In this document: one piece after another, positions 12,986-61,375 of the stretch
Position numbering within the stretch: the first letter of the stretch is position 1
Layout: each line of letters starts with the position of its first letter
DNA from: Acetobacter lovaniensis
Lineage (GTDB): Bacteria; Pseudomonadota; Alphaproteobacteria; Acetobacterales; Acetobacteraceae
Direction: 5' to 3'
Length of the DNA stretch: 64,000 bases
Assembly: GCF_014207635.1 (NCBI RefSeq)
Contig: NZ_JACHIE010000002.1
Coordinates: 1 to 64,000, forward strand
Notes under the pieces: model-generated
Database searches by the model: none
Seen by the model: only the letters and a program-made list of their open reading frames with translations
Told to the model about the DNA's origin: nothing
Program-made: the position numbers and the translations under genes

Positions 12986-13249
12986 CAGTCCCTGTCCCTA
13001 TCCAGCCCGGGGATAGCTTATCACCCTGTCCGATTTTCCGGGGCCAGCTCTGAGAGACCGATCCATGGGGTGCTTGTTTGTCAGTGCGCCAGTCAGGCGC
13101 AGATACACGGTCTGCGCGCGAAAAACCGGTCTTTGCGTTCTGCCGTCTCATGAGTCTCCAGCTTGCATGCTGGATACGTTCGACGGCATGACACTAGAAC
13201 TGGAACTGACAGGATTTTATCGCATCGAAATGCAGTCTTCAGGACAGGA

Positions 13250-14356
13250 TCAGACTGCTGCGGTTTTACCGTTCCGGGCCACAATCTGCTCAACACGGGC
13301 CAGAATGTCCCGGCCGATCCGGTCAAACTGCTGCGCGCCAAAACGGGCCAGTACTGTCGCGCGCGCATGTTGGCCCATATCCGCCAGATGCTGAGGCTGT
13401 TTGAGCAGGTCTTCCAGCGCACTGGCAAGGGCCGCACTATCCTGCGGTGGCACGATGCGGCCGATCTGCGGGGTAATGGAAGACGGGATTTCTCCCGCGT
13501 TGGAAGCAACAACCGGCAGGGATGCCAGCATGGCCTCATGCGCGGCCAGGCAGAACCCTTCCCACAGGGAAGGTTGGACATAAAGATGCAGTCGGGACAG
13601 AAAAACCGATGGGTCTTTAATATGGCCAAGGATCTGTATGGGCAGCCTGCCTTGAGCAATCAGTGCCTCAAGATGGGGGCGCTCTTCCCCCTCGCCGCCG
13701 ATCAGCACTTCAAAAGGGGGAAGACCAGAACGGGTTTGCAGCAGGGCAACGGCCGCGCACAGCGTGTCATACCCTTTGACCGGGTGCAGTCGGCCCAGCG
13801 TGCCAATGCGGACAGGTGTGCCGGGTTGCCAGGGTGCGGCGGTAGGAACATTGGGGTCCGCCCTGAAGATAGGCCATTCCACAAGCCTGTCCGGGGTAAC
13901 GCCCAGTGTGCGGCGTGTCTGCTCTGCCACGCAGGAGGAATCGGCGACCCACAGGGCGCTTCTGTTTTTAAAGCGGCGCAGCAGGGCAGCGTTCAGGGGT
14001 TTGAGACGTGCAGAATGCTGCCAGCTTACAACGGGAATGTGCTGCCATTGACCAACCAGTTGCCCCAGCAGCGTGGCCCGGCTGAGCGATGTCCAGATAA
14101 CATCGGGTTTATAGGCGCGCATCTGCCTGTGCAGCCAGAGCAGGGCTGCAAGGTGATCCTTGCGGGAGCCGGGGCGGATATGGAGTGTAAGCCCGGCGTT
14201 TTCCAGCGGTTCAATAGCCAGACCGTTGCGCCGAGTCAGGGCAAAAACCTCAACATGATGCCCGGCGTCCCGCATGACCTTTGTAATGGCCGGAACGGGA
14301 AGCGCCGCACCACCGCTTTCCACGGAGTTTATAATATACGCGATTTTCATCGGCAC
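13250..14356 (-). CDS. GT4 family glycosyltransferase
   Basis: A 368-residue GT-B glycosyltransferase. The N-terminal Rossmann domain starts KIAYIINSVESGGAALPVP. The donor domain has IGTLGRLHPVKGYDTLCAA, IGGEGEERPHLEALI, LGHIKDP, and the EX7E motif in LWEGFCLAAHEAMLASLPVV. It is a likely membrane-associated step in assembling a surface polysaccharide. It lies 72 bp downstream of the glycerophosphotransferase-like gene on the same strand, so the two probably form an operon. The IS3 element sits 198 bp beyond its 3' end. Confidence 0.83.
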   Translation of the reverse strand: MPMKIAYIINSVESGGAALPVPAITKVMRDAGHHVEVFALTRRNGLAIEPLENAGLTLHIRPGSRKDHLAALLWLHRQMRAYKPDVIWTSLSRATLLGQLVGQWQHIPVVSWQHSARLKPLNAALLRRFKNRSALWVADSSCVAEQTRRTLGVTPDRLVEWPIFRADPNVPTAAPWQPGTPVRIGTLGRLHPVKGYDTLCAAVALLQTRSGLPPFEVLIGGEGEERPHLEALIAQGRLPIQILGHIKDPSVFLSRLHLYVQPSLWEGFCLAAHEAMLASLPVVASNAGEIPSSITPQIGRIVPPQDSAALASALEDLLKQPQHLADMGQHARATVLARFGAQQFDRIGRDILARVEQIVARNGKTAAV

Positions 14357-14428
14357 GATTTTTGCACGGATCAGACCAATAAGCGAGGGAGAAGCACGCC
14401 AGACGCACTCGTGGAAGCGGGAAAAGGC

Positions 14429-15688
14429 TCAGACCTTTTTTTGCAGAAAACGCATAATGGCGTCCGCAGCCCCCGGAGATGTCGGGCTTTTGTCCTGATG
14501 TTCGAATGTTTCAGCAACATAGGCGCGCTGCCTGCCCTCAAACTCATCCTCACGGGTAAAGGCAAGAGAAAGTGCCTTGCCCAGTTCATCGGGGGAGTCG
14601 ATCACCTGCCCCAGTGTCCAGAACCGGTAGTCCTTGTTGTTCTGCCAGTGCGCGTGATGGGCATTGAGGAAAATGCACGGTCTGGGCCGGATCAGGAACT
14701 CGGCAACCTGACTGCTGACATCCCCCAGATAAAGGTCAGCCGCCATGGTGTAGGTCATGTCTATGCTGCGGGAGCTACCGGTATCGATCAGGATATTGGG
14801 ATATTGGGCAAAGCGCCTGACCAGCGCTTCGGCCTGTTTCTTGTGGCCATTGAACAGGCGGTAATGCGGTGCGCAGATCAGGTTGTAATGATCCTGATTG
14901 GCAAAGTAGTTCAGGATTGTCTCGCCAAACTGGTACCACGATGTCAGACCGCGTGAAAAATGCGGATTGTACAATACAATGGGTTTGTCGTTATCAAACA
15001 GACGAGCCTGCTGCTTGTGCAGACGCTCCACAATATCGAACTTGGCATAGGTGCCCATGTGGTATTCGCCGGGGGTGATAAGGCCCCGTTCAAGCAGCCT
15101 CTGTTCCACTTTTTTGCCTGAAAGAAGCACAAAGTCGAACTGCTTGATATCCTCGGCAAATCCAATGGCCCGGTCCCCCGCGCCATGGCGTGTCCAGATA
15201 TACAGAGGTTTGGTCACACCCATGCGCTTGAGGTAGAGCGATGTCCGCTCCGGCACCACAATGGCCTGAAACTGATTGAAGTAATGGCGGCTGAAAAACA
15301 GGGAGGCCAGCCGCTCAAGCGGGCCGGGGCCATTACGCTCGACCAGCCTGCTCAGCCATGCAGGAATGGGGAGCAGGTCGTAGGTGACTTTTGCCGCCGG
15401 GTAGAGTCGGCCTAGCGAGCGGGCATAATCAAGATGGCTCTGGGTAGGGCAAGCCACATGCACGTCCGCATTGGGGTGGCGGGTTGCCATTTCAAAGGCG
15501 ATGGGGAGCGAGTGGAGCGTCTGGTGCGGCTGGGCAATCAGCAGGAAAACCACTTTCAGCGTTTTAAGAGCGCTTTGTGGCGGTGTCTGTGGTGCCGACA
15601 CACCATGAGGACCACGCCCCAGACTCTGAAGGTGTTTCTGCTGGTCTGTCATATCGAAAAAAAATGGCTGCACAGGCACATAGGTCAA
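14429..15688 (-). CDS. CDP-glycerol glycerophosphotransferase-like protein
   Basis: A 419-residue protein with GT-B-like architecture resembling the teichoic-acid-type glycerophosphotransferase family. After a non-conserved 45-residue leader come VFLLIAQPHQTLHSLP and WTRHGAGDRAIGF. The donor half has PIVLYNPHFSRGLTSW, RSIDMTYTMAADLYLGDVSS and RPCIFLNAHHAHW. The family's paired histidines (TRHGAGD, NPHFSRG) and the YLGDVSS block are present. The inferred role is transfer of a glycerol-phosphate-like or similar group to a surface glycan, or glycan synthesis generally. The substrate is not determinable. The leader may be overcalled: an in-frame ATG twelve codons in (15652) is an alternative start. 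Confidence 0.7.
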   Translation of the reverse strand: MTYVPVQPFFFDMTDQQKHLQSLGRGPHGVSAPQTPPQSALKTLKVVFLLIAQPHQTLHSLPIAFEMATRHPNADVHVACPTQSHLDYARSLGRLYPAAKVTYDLLPIPAWLSRLVERNGPGPLERLASLFFSRHYFNQFQAIVVPERTSLYLKRMGVTKPLYIWTRHGAGDRAIGFAEDIKQFDFVLLSGKKVEQRLLERGLITPGEYHMGTYAKFDIVERLHKQQARLFDNDKPIVLYNPHFSRGLTSWYQFGETILNYFANQDHYNLICAPHYRLFNGHKKQAEALVRRFAQYPNILIDTGSSRSIDMTYTMAADLYLGDVSSQVAEFLIRPRPCIFLNAHHAHWQNNKDYRFWTLGQVIDSPDELGKALSLAFTREDEFEGRQRAYVAETFEHQDKSPTSPGAADAIMRFLQKKV

Positions 15689-16069
15689 GCTACGGCTCTT
15701 TCCTCTTGGGAAGCGGGCACCATAACCCGGCTACCACAAACACACCTCAATTCCATTCAGCGTTTGGCAAGGACATCTATAGTGCCCGCTGACTTGCACC
15801 AGATAGCGCACAGCGTCAAGACGCTAACACCCGCAGTAAGGGTCTGAACTAACACATAAACTCTCACTTAATATGGATGTTTGACACATATCTTGACCAC
15901 CATACCCGCAGGAGGCGGAAGAACAGTGACGACTGACCCAATGAGGTGGAGGTAACGCAACCAGAACAGACGCTGCCAGAGGCTGGTTATTCAGCACGGG
16001 GAACCCGTTCATGTTCGTGCGGATCAACGCTTGCGTATTCGCGCTAGCGCACCTATAACGCATCCCCAC
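15689..16069. other. Intergenic region upstream of the polysaccharide operon and tRNA-Ser
   Basis: 381 bp between the divergent 5' end of the minus-strand gene at 14429-15688 and the tRNA gene. No protein frame is recognisable. It must contain the promoter of the minus-strand operon and that of the tRNA, but no well-formed -10/-35 pair stands out to me. Confidence 0.4.
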
Positions 16070-16159
16070 GGAGAGGTGCCAGAGCGGTCGAATGGGGCGG
16101 TCTCGAAAACCGTTGAGCTAGCAATAGTTCCGAGGGTTCGAATCCCTCCCTCTCCGCCA
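16070..16159 (+). tRNA. tRNA-Ser (anticodon CGA)
   Basis: A 90-nt cloverleaf with acceptor arms GGAGAGG / CCTCTCC, a G discriminator and an encoded CCA. The anticodon loop reads CTCGAAA (anticodon CGA, decoding UCG), the long variable arm is typical of tRNA-Ser, and the T-loop is GGTTCGAATCC. Its 3' end abuts an integrase remnant, as expected for a tRNA used as a phage or island attachment site. Confidence 0.96.
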
Positions 16160-21180: not shown

Positions 21181-21769
21181 CTTTTTACTCGCCTGCAGTT
21201 GCTCTCCTTTCATTGCCCTGAGCCAGAATCATTCTCCCCTGAACCGTCTTTGGAGCTACTTTTGAAGCACCACCGACGGCCACCTCGGATTCCAGTTTCT
21301 GCACCATCTCCCGTTTTGCGTCAGGATTTGCCAGTCGTGCGGCATCGCGCTGACGGTCACGTTCACTTTGCAGCAGCATGTGCGCCGCTTCACGACCCAA
21401 GAATTTTGCGTCGTCGCGTTTTTCGTCGCGGTCCTATGCGCCCTGCCGCTCGACGCGTGATGCATAGCGCCATGGCTCTCTTCACCTGATCTGGCCTTGG
21501 CAGGCATGGCGTGAGGTCCTGCGGTTTGATGCCGGATTTATCCACTGGCAAAGAGCGTAATCGGGCTACCTTCCAGCCTCCCGCCAAAATTACGCCTGAG
21601 CGCAAGTTCTTTGTTGACGTGACGGCGAGTCTGCCAGTAAAAGCCCCGCTAATCCACGCAGATGGAAGCATGCCGTGCAAAGTTGCGGCCAAAGAATAAA
21701 AAGCGAGCTGATTTTTCGCCTGTGCCCAGGGTGCCGCGAGGGTCAAGAGATCGGAAAGAGAGACAGTTT
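21181..21769. other. Unrecognised degenerate stretch before rplU
   Basis: 589 bp without an intact gene. On the minus strand a fragment near 21185-21400 reads like a charged helical protein (SERDRQRDAARLANPDAKRE), and other minus-strand frames to about 21740 are open but shift relative to it. This suggests a broken gene, perhaps from a mobile element. I do not recognise the family. The last part should contain the rplU promoter. Confidence 0.4.
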
Positions 21770-25734: not shown

Positions 25735-25995
25735 GTTCGGCTCCCTTTGTTGCGCATCGTATCTCAGACGCAGAAATACGGAAGACCAAAAACCCGTATC
25801 CTGCTGCTTGCCAAAGGCGCGGGCTTATCGTGCCGTGTCCACGGGGTCAATGATCACACACCATTCTAACCCTTGCAAACGCGTCCCGAGCCTTCCATAA
25901 GCGGAGCAGCCTTTGTGCGCTGTGGCGTTACAGCGCCTGCAAACGCCTTTATTGACGGCGGCCCTGCCCACCACCCTTGCGGGAATGTTTTTTCC

Positions 25996-44514: not shown

Positions 44515-45449
44515 GCACCTCCAAACGGATTACCGTACTTATGGGTGGCATTTCGTCCGAGCGGACGGTCAGCCTGTCTTCCGGGCAGGGCGTGGCCGAG
44601 GCCCTGCGCAGTCTGGGCCATACGGTCAGCACGCTTGATGCCGGGGCCGATCTGGGCGCACTGGTTGCCGAACTGGGCGCTCAAAAACCCGATGTCGTGT
44701 TTAACGCACTCCACGGCCGCTTTGGCGAGGATGGCTGTATTCAGGGTATTCTGGACTGGATGGGCCTTGCCTATACACATTCTGGCGTACGGGCATCCGC
44801 CACAGCCATGAACAAGGCGGCCGCCCGCGCCGCTTTTGTTTCCGCTGGCCTGCCCGTGGCCGAAGGCCGGGTCATTGACATTGCCGAACTTGCCGAGGGC
44901 GACCCCCTGGCCGCCCCCTACGTGGTTAAACCCGTTAGCGAAGGCTCGTCCGTTGGCGTCTCCATCGTACGGCCCGGCGCCAATGTGCGCGAACGCATTG
45001 TGCGGGACTGGACATTTGGCCCGCATGCGCTGGTAGAAGAGTTTATTCCCGGGCGCGAAATTACGGTGGGTGTAATGGGCGAACGCGCCCTGACCATAAC
45101 AGACATTACCCCCACGGGCAGCGGCCACGACTTTTACGATTACGACGCCAAATACAGTACCGGCGGCTCACGGCATGAACTACCCGCCCGCATTGCCCCC
45201 GATGTTGCCCAGCGCGCACTGGACGTGGCGGTAGCCGCCCACAAAACACTGGGATGCGCCGGAGCATCCCGCTCGGATTTCCGGCTGGATGATACAGACC
45301 CGGCCAACCCGCGCCTGATCCTGCTGGAAGTCAACACCCAGCCGGGCATGACTGCAACATCGCTCCTGCCCGAACAGGCCGCCTATTGCGGCATTAGCTT
45401 CCCCGCATTGTGCCATTGGCTTGTTGAGCAGGCCACCTGCCGCCAATGA
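44511..45449 (+). CDS. ddlB: D-alanine--D-alanine ligase
   Basis: A 312-residue ATP-grasp enzyme. It has VLMGGISSERTVSLSSGQGV, LHGRFGEDGCIQGILDWMG, YVVKPVSEGSSVGVSIV for nucleotide binding, and LLEVNTQPGMTATSLLPEQA with metal ligands. It supplies D-Ala-D-Ala to MurF. Its stop overlaps the ftsQ start (ATGA). Confidence 0.96.
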   Translation: MSTSKRITVLMGGISSERTVSLSSGQGVAEALRSLGHTVSTLDAGADLGALVAELGAQKPDVVFNALHGRFGEDGCIQGILDWMGLAYTHSGVRASATAMNKAAARAAFVSAGLPVAEGRVIDIAELAEGDPLAAPYVVKPVSEGSSVGVSIVRPGANVRERIVRDWTFGPHALVEEFIPGREITVGVMGERALTITDITPTGSGHDFYDYDAKYSTGGSRHELPARIAPDVAQRALDVAVAAHKTLGCAGASRSDFRLDDTDPANPRLILLEVNTQPGMTATSLLPEQAAYCGISFPALCHWLVEQATCRQ

Positions 45450-47785
45450 AGCGACCCGCCAGCCGCCCTTCCCGCACGGGATTATTCCTCAAGCGCCAAA
45501 AACGCCTGCTGCGGTCCGTTATCGGGCTTATGCTGCTGTCGGGGGCGGGGGCTGCGGTTTATCTGGCGGTGCCTCTTCCTGCCCTGCAAAACCAGATTGC
45601 CCCCTTGCGGGACAAACTACTGGGCACCTCCGCCCTGCGCGTAACCAGTATCCGGGTTGAAGGCGCCAGCCTGACCAGCGATGCGGCCATCCACGCGGCC
45701 CTGAACATTGCCGTGGGTGACCCGGTTCTCAACTTCAACGTCACCCGCGCGCGTGAGAACCTGACCGCCCTGCCGTTTATTGACCATGTAAGCGTTGAGC
45801 GCCACCTGTCTGGCGAGATTGACGTGCACATTACCGAGCGCCCGCCGTATGCGGTGTGGCAGCATCAGGGCCATTTTATCCTGATCGACCGGCAGGGGCA
45901 GAAAGTGCCGGATCAGGGCGCGAACGACAAGGACGCCACCGCCTTTGCCAAACTGCCACTGGTTGTCGGTGACGGCGCGAACGAGAACGCCGCCGCCCTG
46001 ATAGACGTACTGGCGCTGGAACCGGACGTAAAATCCCACGTAACGGCCGCTGTACGTGTAAGCGACCGCCGCTGGAACCTGAGCCTGAAAGATGGCGCAA
46101 CTGTACTCCTGCCCGAAGGGGAGGAAGCCCCGGCCATTCACCGGCTGGCCAGAATTAACGCCACAACACAGCTGCTTGACCGCCCCGTCGAGCTGATTGA
46201 CATGCGCCTGCCCGACCGGCTGACCATAAGGGAACGCCCCCCCGAACCGCCAGCGCCCCCCCTGCGCAGGCAGGGGATGGCACAAAAAGCAGCCCGCACA
46301 CCCCCCACCATACCCAGCCCCCCAAACCCGCCACGGAGGAAAGCCGAGATGAATGACACCGCGCACTCCCCTGCTTCCCCCGCACTTAATCTGTCGGACC
46401 GGCTGCACAAAAAACGGAGCCATTCCTCAGTCTCCCCCACACTGCGCATGAGCGGGGGGGAGACATCCCTTCCGCTCCCACCCAGTGAGCGCAACAAACG
46501 CCCACACACATGGCGCAACGGCTACAGTGCGGTGCTGGATATTGGCTCGACCAAAATTACCTGCCTTATCGGCAAGGGGGAGCCCAACGGCATGCTGCGC
46601 GTGGCGGGCTTTGGCTGGCGTCGCTCCGCCGGTGTGCGCAATGGCGCCATTACCGAGTTGCAGGAGGCCGAAGCCGCCATACGCGCAACCGTGGCGCAGG
46701 CCGAAAACATGGCCGAGCGCACCATAGACAAGGTGGTGGTCAACCTGTCCTGCGGGCATCCGGCCAGCCGTCTGTTCAATGTACGCTGGCCCATTGGCGG
46801 GCGGGTCGTAACCGAGGCGGACATCCGCCGCGTGGTGACCGAAGGGCGCGTACAGGCTACCGTGCAGGGGCGCGATGTCATTCACACCCTGCCCATAGAT
46901 TTTACGGTGGATGATACCGAGGGCGTGTCTGACCCACGGGGGCATCTGTGCGAAACGCTCAAGGCGCGCCTGCATATTATTGATGCCGCCACCACCGCCC
47001 TGCTGAACCTTGAAACCGTACTGAGCCGTGCCGAACTGCGCATGGAAGCACTTGTGTCCTCCCCGCTGGCATCCGGCCTGTCCGTGCTGGACAGGGATGA
47101 ACGCGACCTTGGCACAACAGTTGTGGACATGGGCGGGGGCACCACATCCTTTGCCGTCTTTGGCGAAGGCCAGATCCTGCACACTGCCCAGATCGGGGTT
47201 GGCGGGCTGCATGTGACGCGTGACATAGCCCGCGGTCTTGGCACATCGCTCGACAATGCCGAACGGCTGAAAACCGTGTATGGCAGCGCGGACCTCTCCT
47301 CCGACGTGGAGGACGAAATCCTGACCGTGGAACTGCTGGGCAATGATGTGCCCCATTTCGAGCAGATCTCCCGCGCCCAGCTTGGCCGCATCATTCGCCC
47401 CCGCATGGAGGAAACACTGGAACTGGTGCGCGAAAAACTGGACGGCGCGGGCCTTGGCATGGCCGCCAGTGGTCGCATCGTGCTGACCGGGGGCGGCTCC
47501 CTGCTGGATGGAATCCGCCCGCTGGCCGAACGTATTCTGGGGGTGCCTGTCAGTGTTGGCCGTCATTCCGGCCCCGGTTTTAACCGCTCGGTCCGTCTGG
47601 GCAGACCCAAGAATATTGCCGGTCTGCCAGAAGATACGGCAGCCGCGGCAGGCTTTGCCACGGCTGCTGGCCTGCTGTTCTGGGCAGCCAGCGCGGAGCG
47701 TCCGTTCAGCGATGTGGAATTCCGCGAAGCCGCGCCAACTGGTTTTTTACAAAAACTGGTTGCTTTTATTCGTGAGAGGGTTTGA
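45446..47785 (+). CDS. ftsQ: Continuous ftsQ-ftsA reading frame (FtsQ part, read-through into FtsA)
   Basis: One open frame of 779 codons begins as FtsQ and ends as FtsA. The FtsQ part has a basic N-terminus, a membrane helix (about residues 22-45), a POTRA domain (about 63-137; SALRVTSIRVEGASLTSDAA) and the conserved end ELIDMRLPDRLTIRERPP at about residue 265. A C-run- and proline-rich stretch of about 36 codons leads directly to FtsA sequence with no stop. FtsQ faces the periplasm after its single helix and FtsA is cytoplasmic, so a fused product could not place both domains correctly. The +1 frame is open from 46230 and ends at a TGA (46350-46352) overlapping the ftsA ATG, like the other ATGA junctions here. 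An indel or sequence error in the C-rich tail is therefore the likely cause. Confidence 0.85.
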   Translation: MKRPASRPSRTGLFLKRQKRLLRSVIGLMLLSGAGAAVYLAVPLPALQNQIAPLRDKLLGTSALRVTSIRVEGASLTSDAAIHAALNIAVGDPVLNFNVTRARENLTALPFIDHVSVERHLSGEIDVHITERPPYAVWQHQGHFILIDRQGQKVPDQGANDKDATAFAKLPLVVGDGANENAAALIDVLALEPDVKSHVTAAVRVSDRRWNLSLKDGATVLLPEGEEAPAIHRLARINATTQLLDRPVELIDMRLPDRLTIRERPPEPPAPPLRRQGMAQKAARTPPTIPSPPNPPRRKAEMNDTAHSPASPALNLSDRLHKKRSHSSVSPTLRMSGGETSLPLPPSERNKRPHTWRNGYSAVLDIGSTKITCLIGKGEPNGMLRVAGFGWRRSAGVRNGAITELQEAEAAIRATVAQAENMAERTIDKVVVNLSCGHPASRLFNVRWPIGGRVVTEADIRRVVTEGRVQATVQGRDVIHTLPIDFTVDDTEGVSDPRGHLCETLKARLHIIDAATTALLNLETVLSRAELRMEALVSSPLASGLSVLDRDERDLGTTVVDMGGGTTSFAVFGEGQILHTAQIGVGGLHVTRDIARGLGTSLDNAERLKTVYGSADLSSDVEDEILTVELLGNDVPHFEQISRAQLGRIIRPRMEETLELVREKLDGAGLGMAASGRIVLTGGGSLLDGIRPLAERILGVPVSVGRHSGPGFNRSVRLGRPKNIAGLPEDTAAAAGFATAAGLLFWAASAERPFSDVEFREAAPTGFLQKLVAFIRERV
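46349..47785 (+). CDS. ftsA: Cell division protein FtsA (own internal start)
   Basis: A 478-residue actin-like ATPase that tethers FtsZ to the membrane. After a roughly 58-residue low-complexity N-terminal extension come the nucleotide site AVLDIGSTKITCLIG, the 1C domain, TTVVDMGGGTTSFAVF (phosphate 2) and VLTGGGSLLDGI (adenosine site). The C-terminal PTGFLQKLVAFIRERV is a good amphipathic membrane-targeting helix. The ATG at 46349 is preceded by a strong GGAGGAAAG, so FtsA can be translated independently of the FtsQ read-through. The ATG at 46448 is a possible shorter start. ftsZ begins 82 bp after its stop. Confidence 0.93.
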   Translation: MNDTAHSPASPALNLSDRLHKKRSHSSVSPTLRMSGGETSLPLPPSERNKRPHTWRNGYSAVLDIGSTKITCLIGKGEPNGMLRVAGFGWRRSAGVRNGAITELQEAEAAIRATVAQAENMAERTIDKVVVNLSCGHPASRLFNVRWPIGGRVVTEADIRRVVTEGRVQATVQGRDVIHTLPIDFTVDDTEGVSDPRGHLCETLKARLHIIDAATTALLNLETVLSRAELRMEALVSSPLASGLSVLDRDERDLGTTVVDMGGGTTSFAVFGEGQILHTAQIGVGGLHVTRDIARGLGTSLDNAERLKTVYGSADLSSDVEDEILTVELLGNDVPHFEQISRAQLGRIIRPRMEETLELVREKLDGAGLGMAASGRIVLTGGGSLLDGIRPLAERILGVPVSVGRHSGPGFNRSVRLGRPKNIAGLPEDTAAAAGFATAAGLLFWAASAERPFSDVEFREAAPTGFLQKLVAFIRERV

Positions 47786-61067: not shown

Positions 61068-61375
61068 CGCGCGTTACCCCGCAAGAAAAAGGAAAAAACA
61101 CCCACACCAACCATAAAGCACATGGCCGTGCAGGTTCCATACTGGCCACCCTTATCACACCAAAAGTGCAAAAATCCAAATCCTCTGACCAGAAGTGGAG
61201 CAGATGCCACACCATTGACCAGAACATGGCTTGGACCAGCAAACGCTATTTGCCTAATTCGTGCATATTAGACATAAAGGCAGCCGCCTTTGGCAAATTC
61301 ATGCCCAAGAGAGATTGTTTTTATCCTTCTGCTTACCATTTGTGTGTAACCAGCCCAACTGAACAGGAACGCGTT
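61068..61375. promoter_or_regulatory. Divergent intergenic region upstream of aroG
   Basis: 308 bp between the minus-strand secreted-protein gene and aroG. It should hold both promoters; candidate hexamers such as TTGCCT near 61250 exist but pairing is ambiguous. I looked for an aromatic leader peptide or attenuator hairpin and found none I would defend. Confidence 0.4.

Follow-up and report, generated by a model that had tools for sequence, protein, structure and literature searches.

The ftsQ–ftsA junction of Acetobacter lovaniensis

The window analyzed comprises the first 64,000 nucleotides of contig NZ_JACHIE010000002.1 from the draft assembly of Acetobacter lovaniensis (57 contigs, 3.46 Mb). 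The usual murein and division gene cluster with ATGA overlaps was observed upstream of ftsQ and ftsA, with ftsZ located downstream, and ATGA was found at the start of every one of murE, murF, murD, murG, murC, murB, ddl and ftsQ, as the first-pass annotation of this DNA had described. Its central claim, that ftsQ and ftsA share one uninterrupted frame, was confirmed as well, as reading of the window gave a single frame of 779 aa on the plus strand (45446–47785) that holds FtsQ and then FtsA without an internal stop, and direct translation placed the first stop of the ftsQ frame at 47783–47785. The Pfam domains detected in this frame were POTRA_1 (residues 65–132), FtsQ_DivIB_C (136–254), SHS2_FTSA (437–512) and FtsA, with its best stretch at 559–742, and since all four were found, both FtsQ and FtsA look whole. 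Also recovered from the window were the TGA codons that end the two other frames (46350 and 46354), the stop codons at 46221 and 46227, and the four C runs of 7, 7, 6 and 6 bases in the ftsQ tail; no transmembrane stretch could be seen by eye in the translation of this tail. A genome search revealed that FtsA is single-copy, with a weaker family match on another contig (C4) that was read as an MreB-like protein seen in the relatives too, and the plasmid collection searched gave no match. The features of the junction are shown in Table 1.

Table 1. Features at the ftsQ–ftsA junction, in coordinates of the window.
Feature	Position	Strand	Basis
ftsQ core, residues 1–262	45446..46231	+	Pfam; 97% identity to A. 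fabarum FtsQ core
Hypervariable Pro-rich ftsQ tail, open into ftsA	46232..46348	+	46-locus tail comparison; stop-free
One-base length difference from A. fabarum	about 46247..46262 (aligners: 46254)	+	Includes C run 46256–46262
Remnant of the old tail, readable in the frame of A. fabarum up to TEESRDE and TGA 46354–46356	46255..46356	+	Direct translation
Three-base, frame-neutral length difference from A. fabarum	46295..46296	+	Alignment
GGAGG, Shine-Dalgarno-like site of ftsA, 9 bases 5′ of ATG	46335..46339	+	
ATGAATGA, start of ftsA and, overlapping it, two potential ftsQ stops, TGA 46350–46352 and TGA 46354–46356	46349..46356	+	
ftsA, 478 aa from its own ATG	46349..47785	+	Pfam and reading of the window

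The nearest relative among the genomes compared is A. fabarum (taken as LMG 24244), with rounded protein identities of 97% for the FtsQ core and 100% for FtsA, and 95% DNA identity across 42.5 kb around the locus. Collinearity with A. fabarum begins at position 21497 of the window; the part from 1 to 21496 is not collinear, with 589–1472 and 13204–16159 matching the opposite strand near 325–331 kb of the A. fabarum contig, which suggests an inversion or insertion boundary.

In the alignment of the ftsQ tails, A. lovaniensis lacks a single base around 46254 and three bases at 46295 that A. fabarum has. When translated in the frame of A. fabarum, the A. lovaniensis bases from 46255 onwards give APPAQAGDGTKSSPHTPHHTQPPKPATEESRDE, followed by a stop at TGA 46354–46356; the counterpart in A. 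fabarum is APSAPAGDGAKSSPQHTPHHTQPTRSPTEESRDE, so the old A. fabarum-like tail is still readable out of frame and the change in A. lovaniensis looks recent. The ftsQ stop of A. fabarum is the second TGA of ATGAATGA, giving an overlap of eight bases with ftsA, and as the remnant ends at TGA 46354–46356, it is this second TGA that is bypassed in A. lovaniensis. The first-pass annotation had taken the +1 frame as the original one, with a lost stop at ATGA 46349 (TGA 46350), and this does not hold for A. fabarum, which uses the +2 frame; the limit of 46230–46349 that it set for the frame switch was derived from the +1 frame and does not apply, the one-base difference lying at about 46247–46262. 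Substitutions relative to A. fabarum after the gap numbered 6, 2 and 4 by codon position, with no sign of a selected frame.

Phase drift of the ftsQ tail among relatives

The genus set consisted of 49 Acetobacter genomes, of which 45, including A. lovaniensis, were resolved, with four others (G027, G030, G039 and G043) showing broken genes, contig ends, separate contigs or no match. Outside the genus, 48 genomes were read of 151 listed, comprising the best-scoring ones and some with long-looking frames, and hence not a random sample. A. lovaniensis was the only one of the 93 resolved genomes with fused ftsQ and ftsA; the continuous frame was found in none of the other 92 (44 Acetobacter and 48 others). 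The 45 loci from the 44 other Acetobacter genomes, one of which has two copies, have ftsQ and ftsA in phase 2 (31 loci), phase 1 (12 loci) or phase 0 (two loci), and both phase-0 loci carry an intervening stop. Phase 0 was also observed in 20 of the 48 genomes outside the genus, each time with a stop, so that none of the 48 is fused. The continuous frame in close relatives was part of what the first-pass annotation had named as evidence against its indel-or-error reading, and the nearest relatives lack it, which leaves that reading standing. A second correction concerns how unusual the open frame is. The ftsA frame is stop-free back to the FtsQ core in 22 of the 45 relative loci, so a stop-free ftsA frame through a C-rich tail is not rare, and in these loci a phase shift by itself would suffice for a fusion. 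Only A. lovaniensis among the resolved genomes has ftsQ in phase with ftsA and no stop between them.

A fusion conserved across the family, prompted by open-frame lengths of 740–1100 in several genomes, was considered and rejected, as the DNA has in-frame stops between ftsQ and ftsA in all 22 phase-0 loci fetched, and the listed lengths seem to read through stops. No natural ftsQ–ftsA fusion was found among the matches listed in the literature search, which covered titles and the beginnings of abstracts.

Some irregular loci were also encountered. L083 (A. papayae JCM 25143) and L032 (G027) show multiple breaks in ftsQ and ftsA, as in error-rich drafts, and both were kept outside the counts. 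One genome (G036) harbors two different ftsQ–ftsA pairs on two contigs (L097 and L098), the second of which resembles those of other genera and is possibly a contamination. In L031, from a 3-contig genome (G013), ftsA is split between two frames around query codons 646–665, with two overlapping matches.

Substantial variation was observed in the tail past the FtsQ core, which ranges from 19 to 127 residues over the 45 loci and is variable in sequence too. All three ftsQ–ftsA phases occur in Acetobacter, and at least seven phase changes, counted as the fewest required, were placed on an ftsA tree, which was a quick maximum-likelihood DNA tree of 46 rows with 13 of 43 inner branches weak and several long branches flagged. 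A 22-base junction around GGAGG is identical in seven of the 46 loci, which form the clade of A. lovaniensis. The ending EESRDE at the second TGA was found in five of the six other identical-junction loci (L006, L007, L008, L010 and L031), while the sixth, from A. lambici (L009), is itself shifted to the ATGA stop, that is, the first TGA. With five loci of the clade using the second TGA and A. lambici the first, the paired stops in ATGAATGA intercept a drifting tail in two of its three possible phases; ftsQ of A. lovaniensis uses neither TGA and, judged by its sequence, would represent the outcome in the third, uncaught phase.

Origin of the open frame and its probable products

The explanation that we favor, and regard as probable, is that a real and recent one-base indel in the tail put ftsQ into the phase of ftsA and that FtsA is started internally at ATG 46349. 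A length change of one base within the fast-evolving tail at the FtsQ C-terminus would have shifted ftsQ into the ftsA phase, and with the old stop bypassed and no other stop intervening, ribosomes translating ftsQ would run on through ftsA. FtsA, a 478-residue cytoplasmic protein, would most likely still be made separately by initiation behind the conserved GGAGG; since the ftsA start and GGAGG are the same in the six other loci of the clade, internal initiation would be an economical way to keep it. The ftsQ product would consist of the new tail followed by an FtsA moiety, which the membrane anchor of FtsQ would send to the periplasm, where it would probably be cut off or degraded. It is conceivable, somewhat short of probable, that the bases are right and that two products arise in the strain, FtsA by itself through internal initiation and a read-through FtsQ–FtsA. 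The open frame, the length difference, the remnant, the conserved start of ftsA and the phase drift within Acetobacter are demonstrated, whereas the correctness of the bases, the internal start of FtsA and the fate of the fusion are points that we infer. The strength of the hairpin predicted over the ftsA start does not exceed that in shuffled sequences (z −0.72), and so gives no pointer to how this start is reached. FtsA is described as essential in E. coli (PMC11323482), and is assumed to be so in Acetobacter. The first-pass annotation had proposed that the indel struck a tail the protein can spare and that ftsA was preserved through its GGAGGAAAG site; this is supported by the A. fabarum alignment, the out-of-frame remnant and the phase changes within the genus.

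The main competing explanation is a sequencing or assembly error in a C run, with the true ftsQ ending at TGA 46354–46356, and it draws on several observations: the difference adjoins the two 7-base C runs, where length errors are commonest, none of the 92 other resolved genomes has the continuous frame, the old frame is intact immediately after the gap, and the assembly is a draft. Moreover, re-sequencing of the finished Vibrio fischeri genome revealed frameshift errors in essential genes, ftsQ among them (PMC2330054). Frameshifts elsewhere in the assembly were screened by comparing 264 kb of A. lovaniensis (of 3.46 Mb) with 400 kb of A. fabarum, which yielded 209,488 aligned columns; ORFs of both genomes were included where their substitutions followed a coding pattern. 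A total of 196 gaps was obtained, 141 of them of non-triple length, and the ftsQ tail was the only clear uncompensated interior frameshift among the coding-pattern ORFs screened, with no second such case, and hence no raised frameshift rate, in the compared part. Coding sequence makes up 167,478 of the aligned bases, and outside the tail it contains 32 C/G runs at least 7 bases long, so that by the rule of three the frameshift error rate would be roughly below 2e-5 per base, or under one in ten runs of this length.

The other non-triple gaps lie at or near ORF ends, are balanced by a neighbor, or fall in ORFs judged to be non-coding or to have an extended start. The gap at 61100 is 5′ of a DAHP synthase domain, the one at 25748 is upstream of a small minus-strand ORF, which we take by eye to be GapR-like, and an RlmL-like gene flagged in the screen is whole from its likely start. 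Six putatively non-coding ORFs with gaps gave no Pfam match (L120:12890-13318, L119:12154-13263, L121:1729-3366, L123:616-1002, L130:745-1353 and L116:17012-17299). In the amidohydrolase gene at L135:5010-6458 on the minus strand, the C-terminal frame departs from that of A. fabarum through a single-base difference close to the 3′ end, at a distance from the stop of 9 bases in A. fabarum and 84 bases in A. lovaniensis; this real difference counts against a perfectly clean assembly record. With a single clear interior frameshift, the comparison makes an error-rich assembly unlikely and the real indel the better bet; a lone error in the C run would still be compatible with these rates, and we consider it less likely than the indel. 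Of the first-pass alternative of recent indel or sequencing error, it is the indel that is strengthened, while the part concerning the original frame does not hold for A. fabarum.

Two further models were considered. RNA polymerase or the ribosome could slip on the C runs and give some normally terminated FtsQ, so that both products are made, and the two 7-base C runs within the tail and the stops of the other frames close by would suit it, but these runs are not kept in the alignment with relatives, and we consider such slippage very improbable. A functional FtsQ–FtsA fusion, linking the division machinery on the periplasmic side with that on the cytoplasmic side, would account for a frame that is open from end to end with both domain sets whole, as a true fusion should be. 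In E. coli, however, the C-terminus of FtsQ is outside, whereas FtsA acts inside, and inspection of the translated tail by eye showed no transmembrane stretch. The ftsA start with its GGAGG is moreover unchanged, and the frame is kept in none of the 92 other resolved genomes, with A. fabarum having a stop, which leaves a functional fusion as the least credible of the models considered.

If the bases are right, the real indel that we prefer would make A. lovaniensis a natural experiment in which an essential gene pair has lost its intervening stop. It would show that the C-terminus of FtsQ either tolerates a very long extension or gets trimmed, and that production of FtsA does not require ribosomes to terminate at the end of ftsQ. 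If both products are made, the strain would be a natural test of the tolerance of the divisome to loss of the ftsQ stop, and of whether a supply of FtsA is possible in the absence of termination-reinitiation. If the frame is an error, the outcome is a small correction to one draft.

Comparison with known systems

In-frame internal translation starts allow a single frame to yield two products of different length. The junction of A. lovaniensis is alike in that the ftsA start, with its own Shine-Dalgarno-like site, lies inside a longer frame and would give the shorter protein; it differs in that the arrangement looks accidental and recent, was seen in a single genome and would leave the long product mislocalized. 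The known frameshift errors that join or split genes in deposited genomes (PMC2330054) share with it a single-base difference beside homopolymers in an essential division gene, whereas those cases mostly split genes and were confirmed by re-sequencing; the A. lovaniensis frame is known from the assembly, the compared remainder of which looks clean.

A further comparison is with ATGA-type overlapping gene pairs, many of which are coupled by termination-reinitiation, with coupling found in all tested pairs but one of the E. coli set (PMC6728339). In the relatives of A. lovaniensis, ftsQ and ftsA resemble such pairs: they share 4 or 8 bases at either ATGA or ATGAATGA, and the Shine-Dalgarno-like site lies inside the upstream gene. 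A. lovaniensis retains this site within ftsQ (GGAGG 46335–46339) but, unlike its clade relatives, has no upstream stop overlapping or near the ftsA start, so reinitiation after termination is impossible there. Whether the junction needs coupling or does without it, either outcome is conceivable by analogy. In PMC6728339, de novo initiation reaches nearly 40% for menDH and is fully efficient for bioBF, and since some E. coli pairs thus rely partly or wholly on de novo initiation, a supply of FtsA from its own start in A. lovaniensis is plausible.
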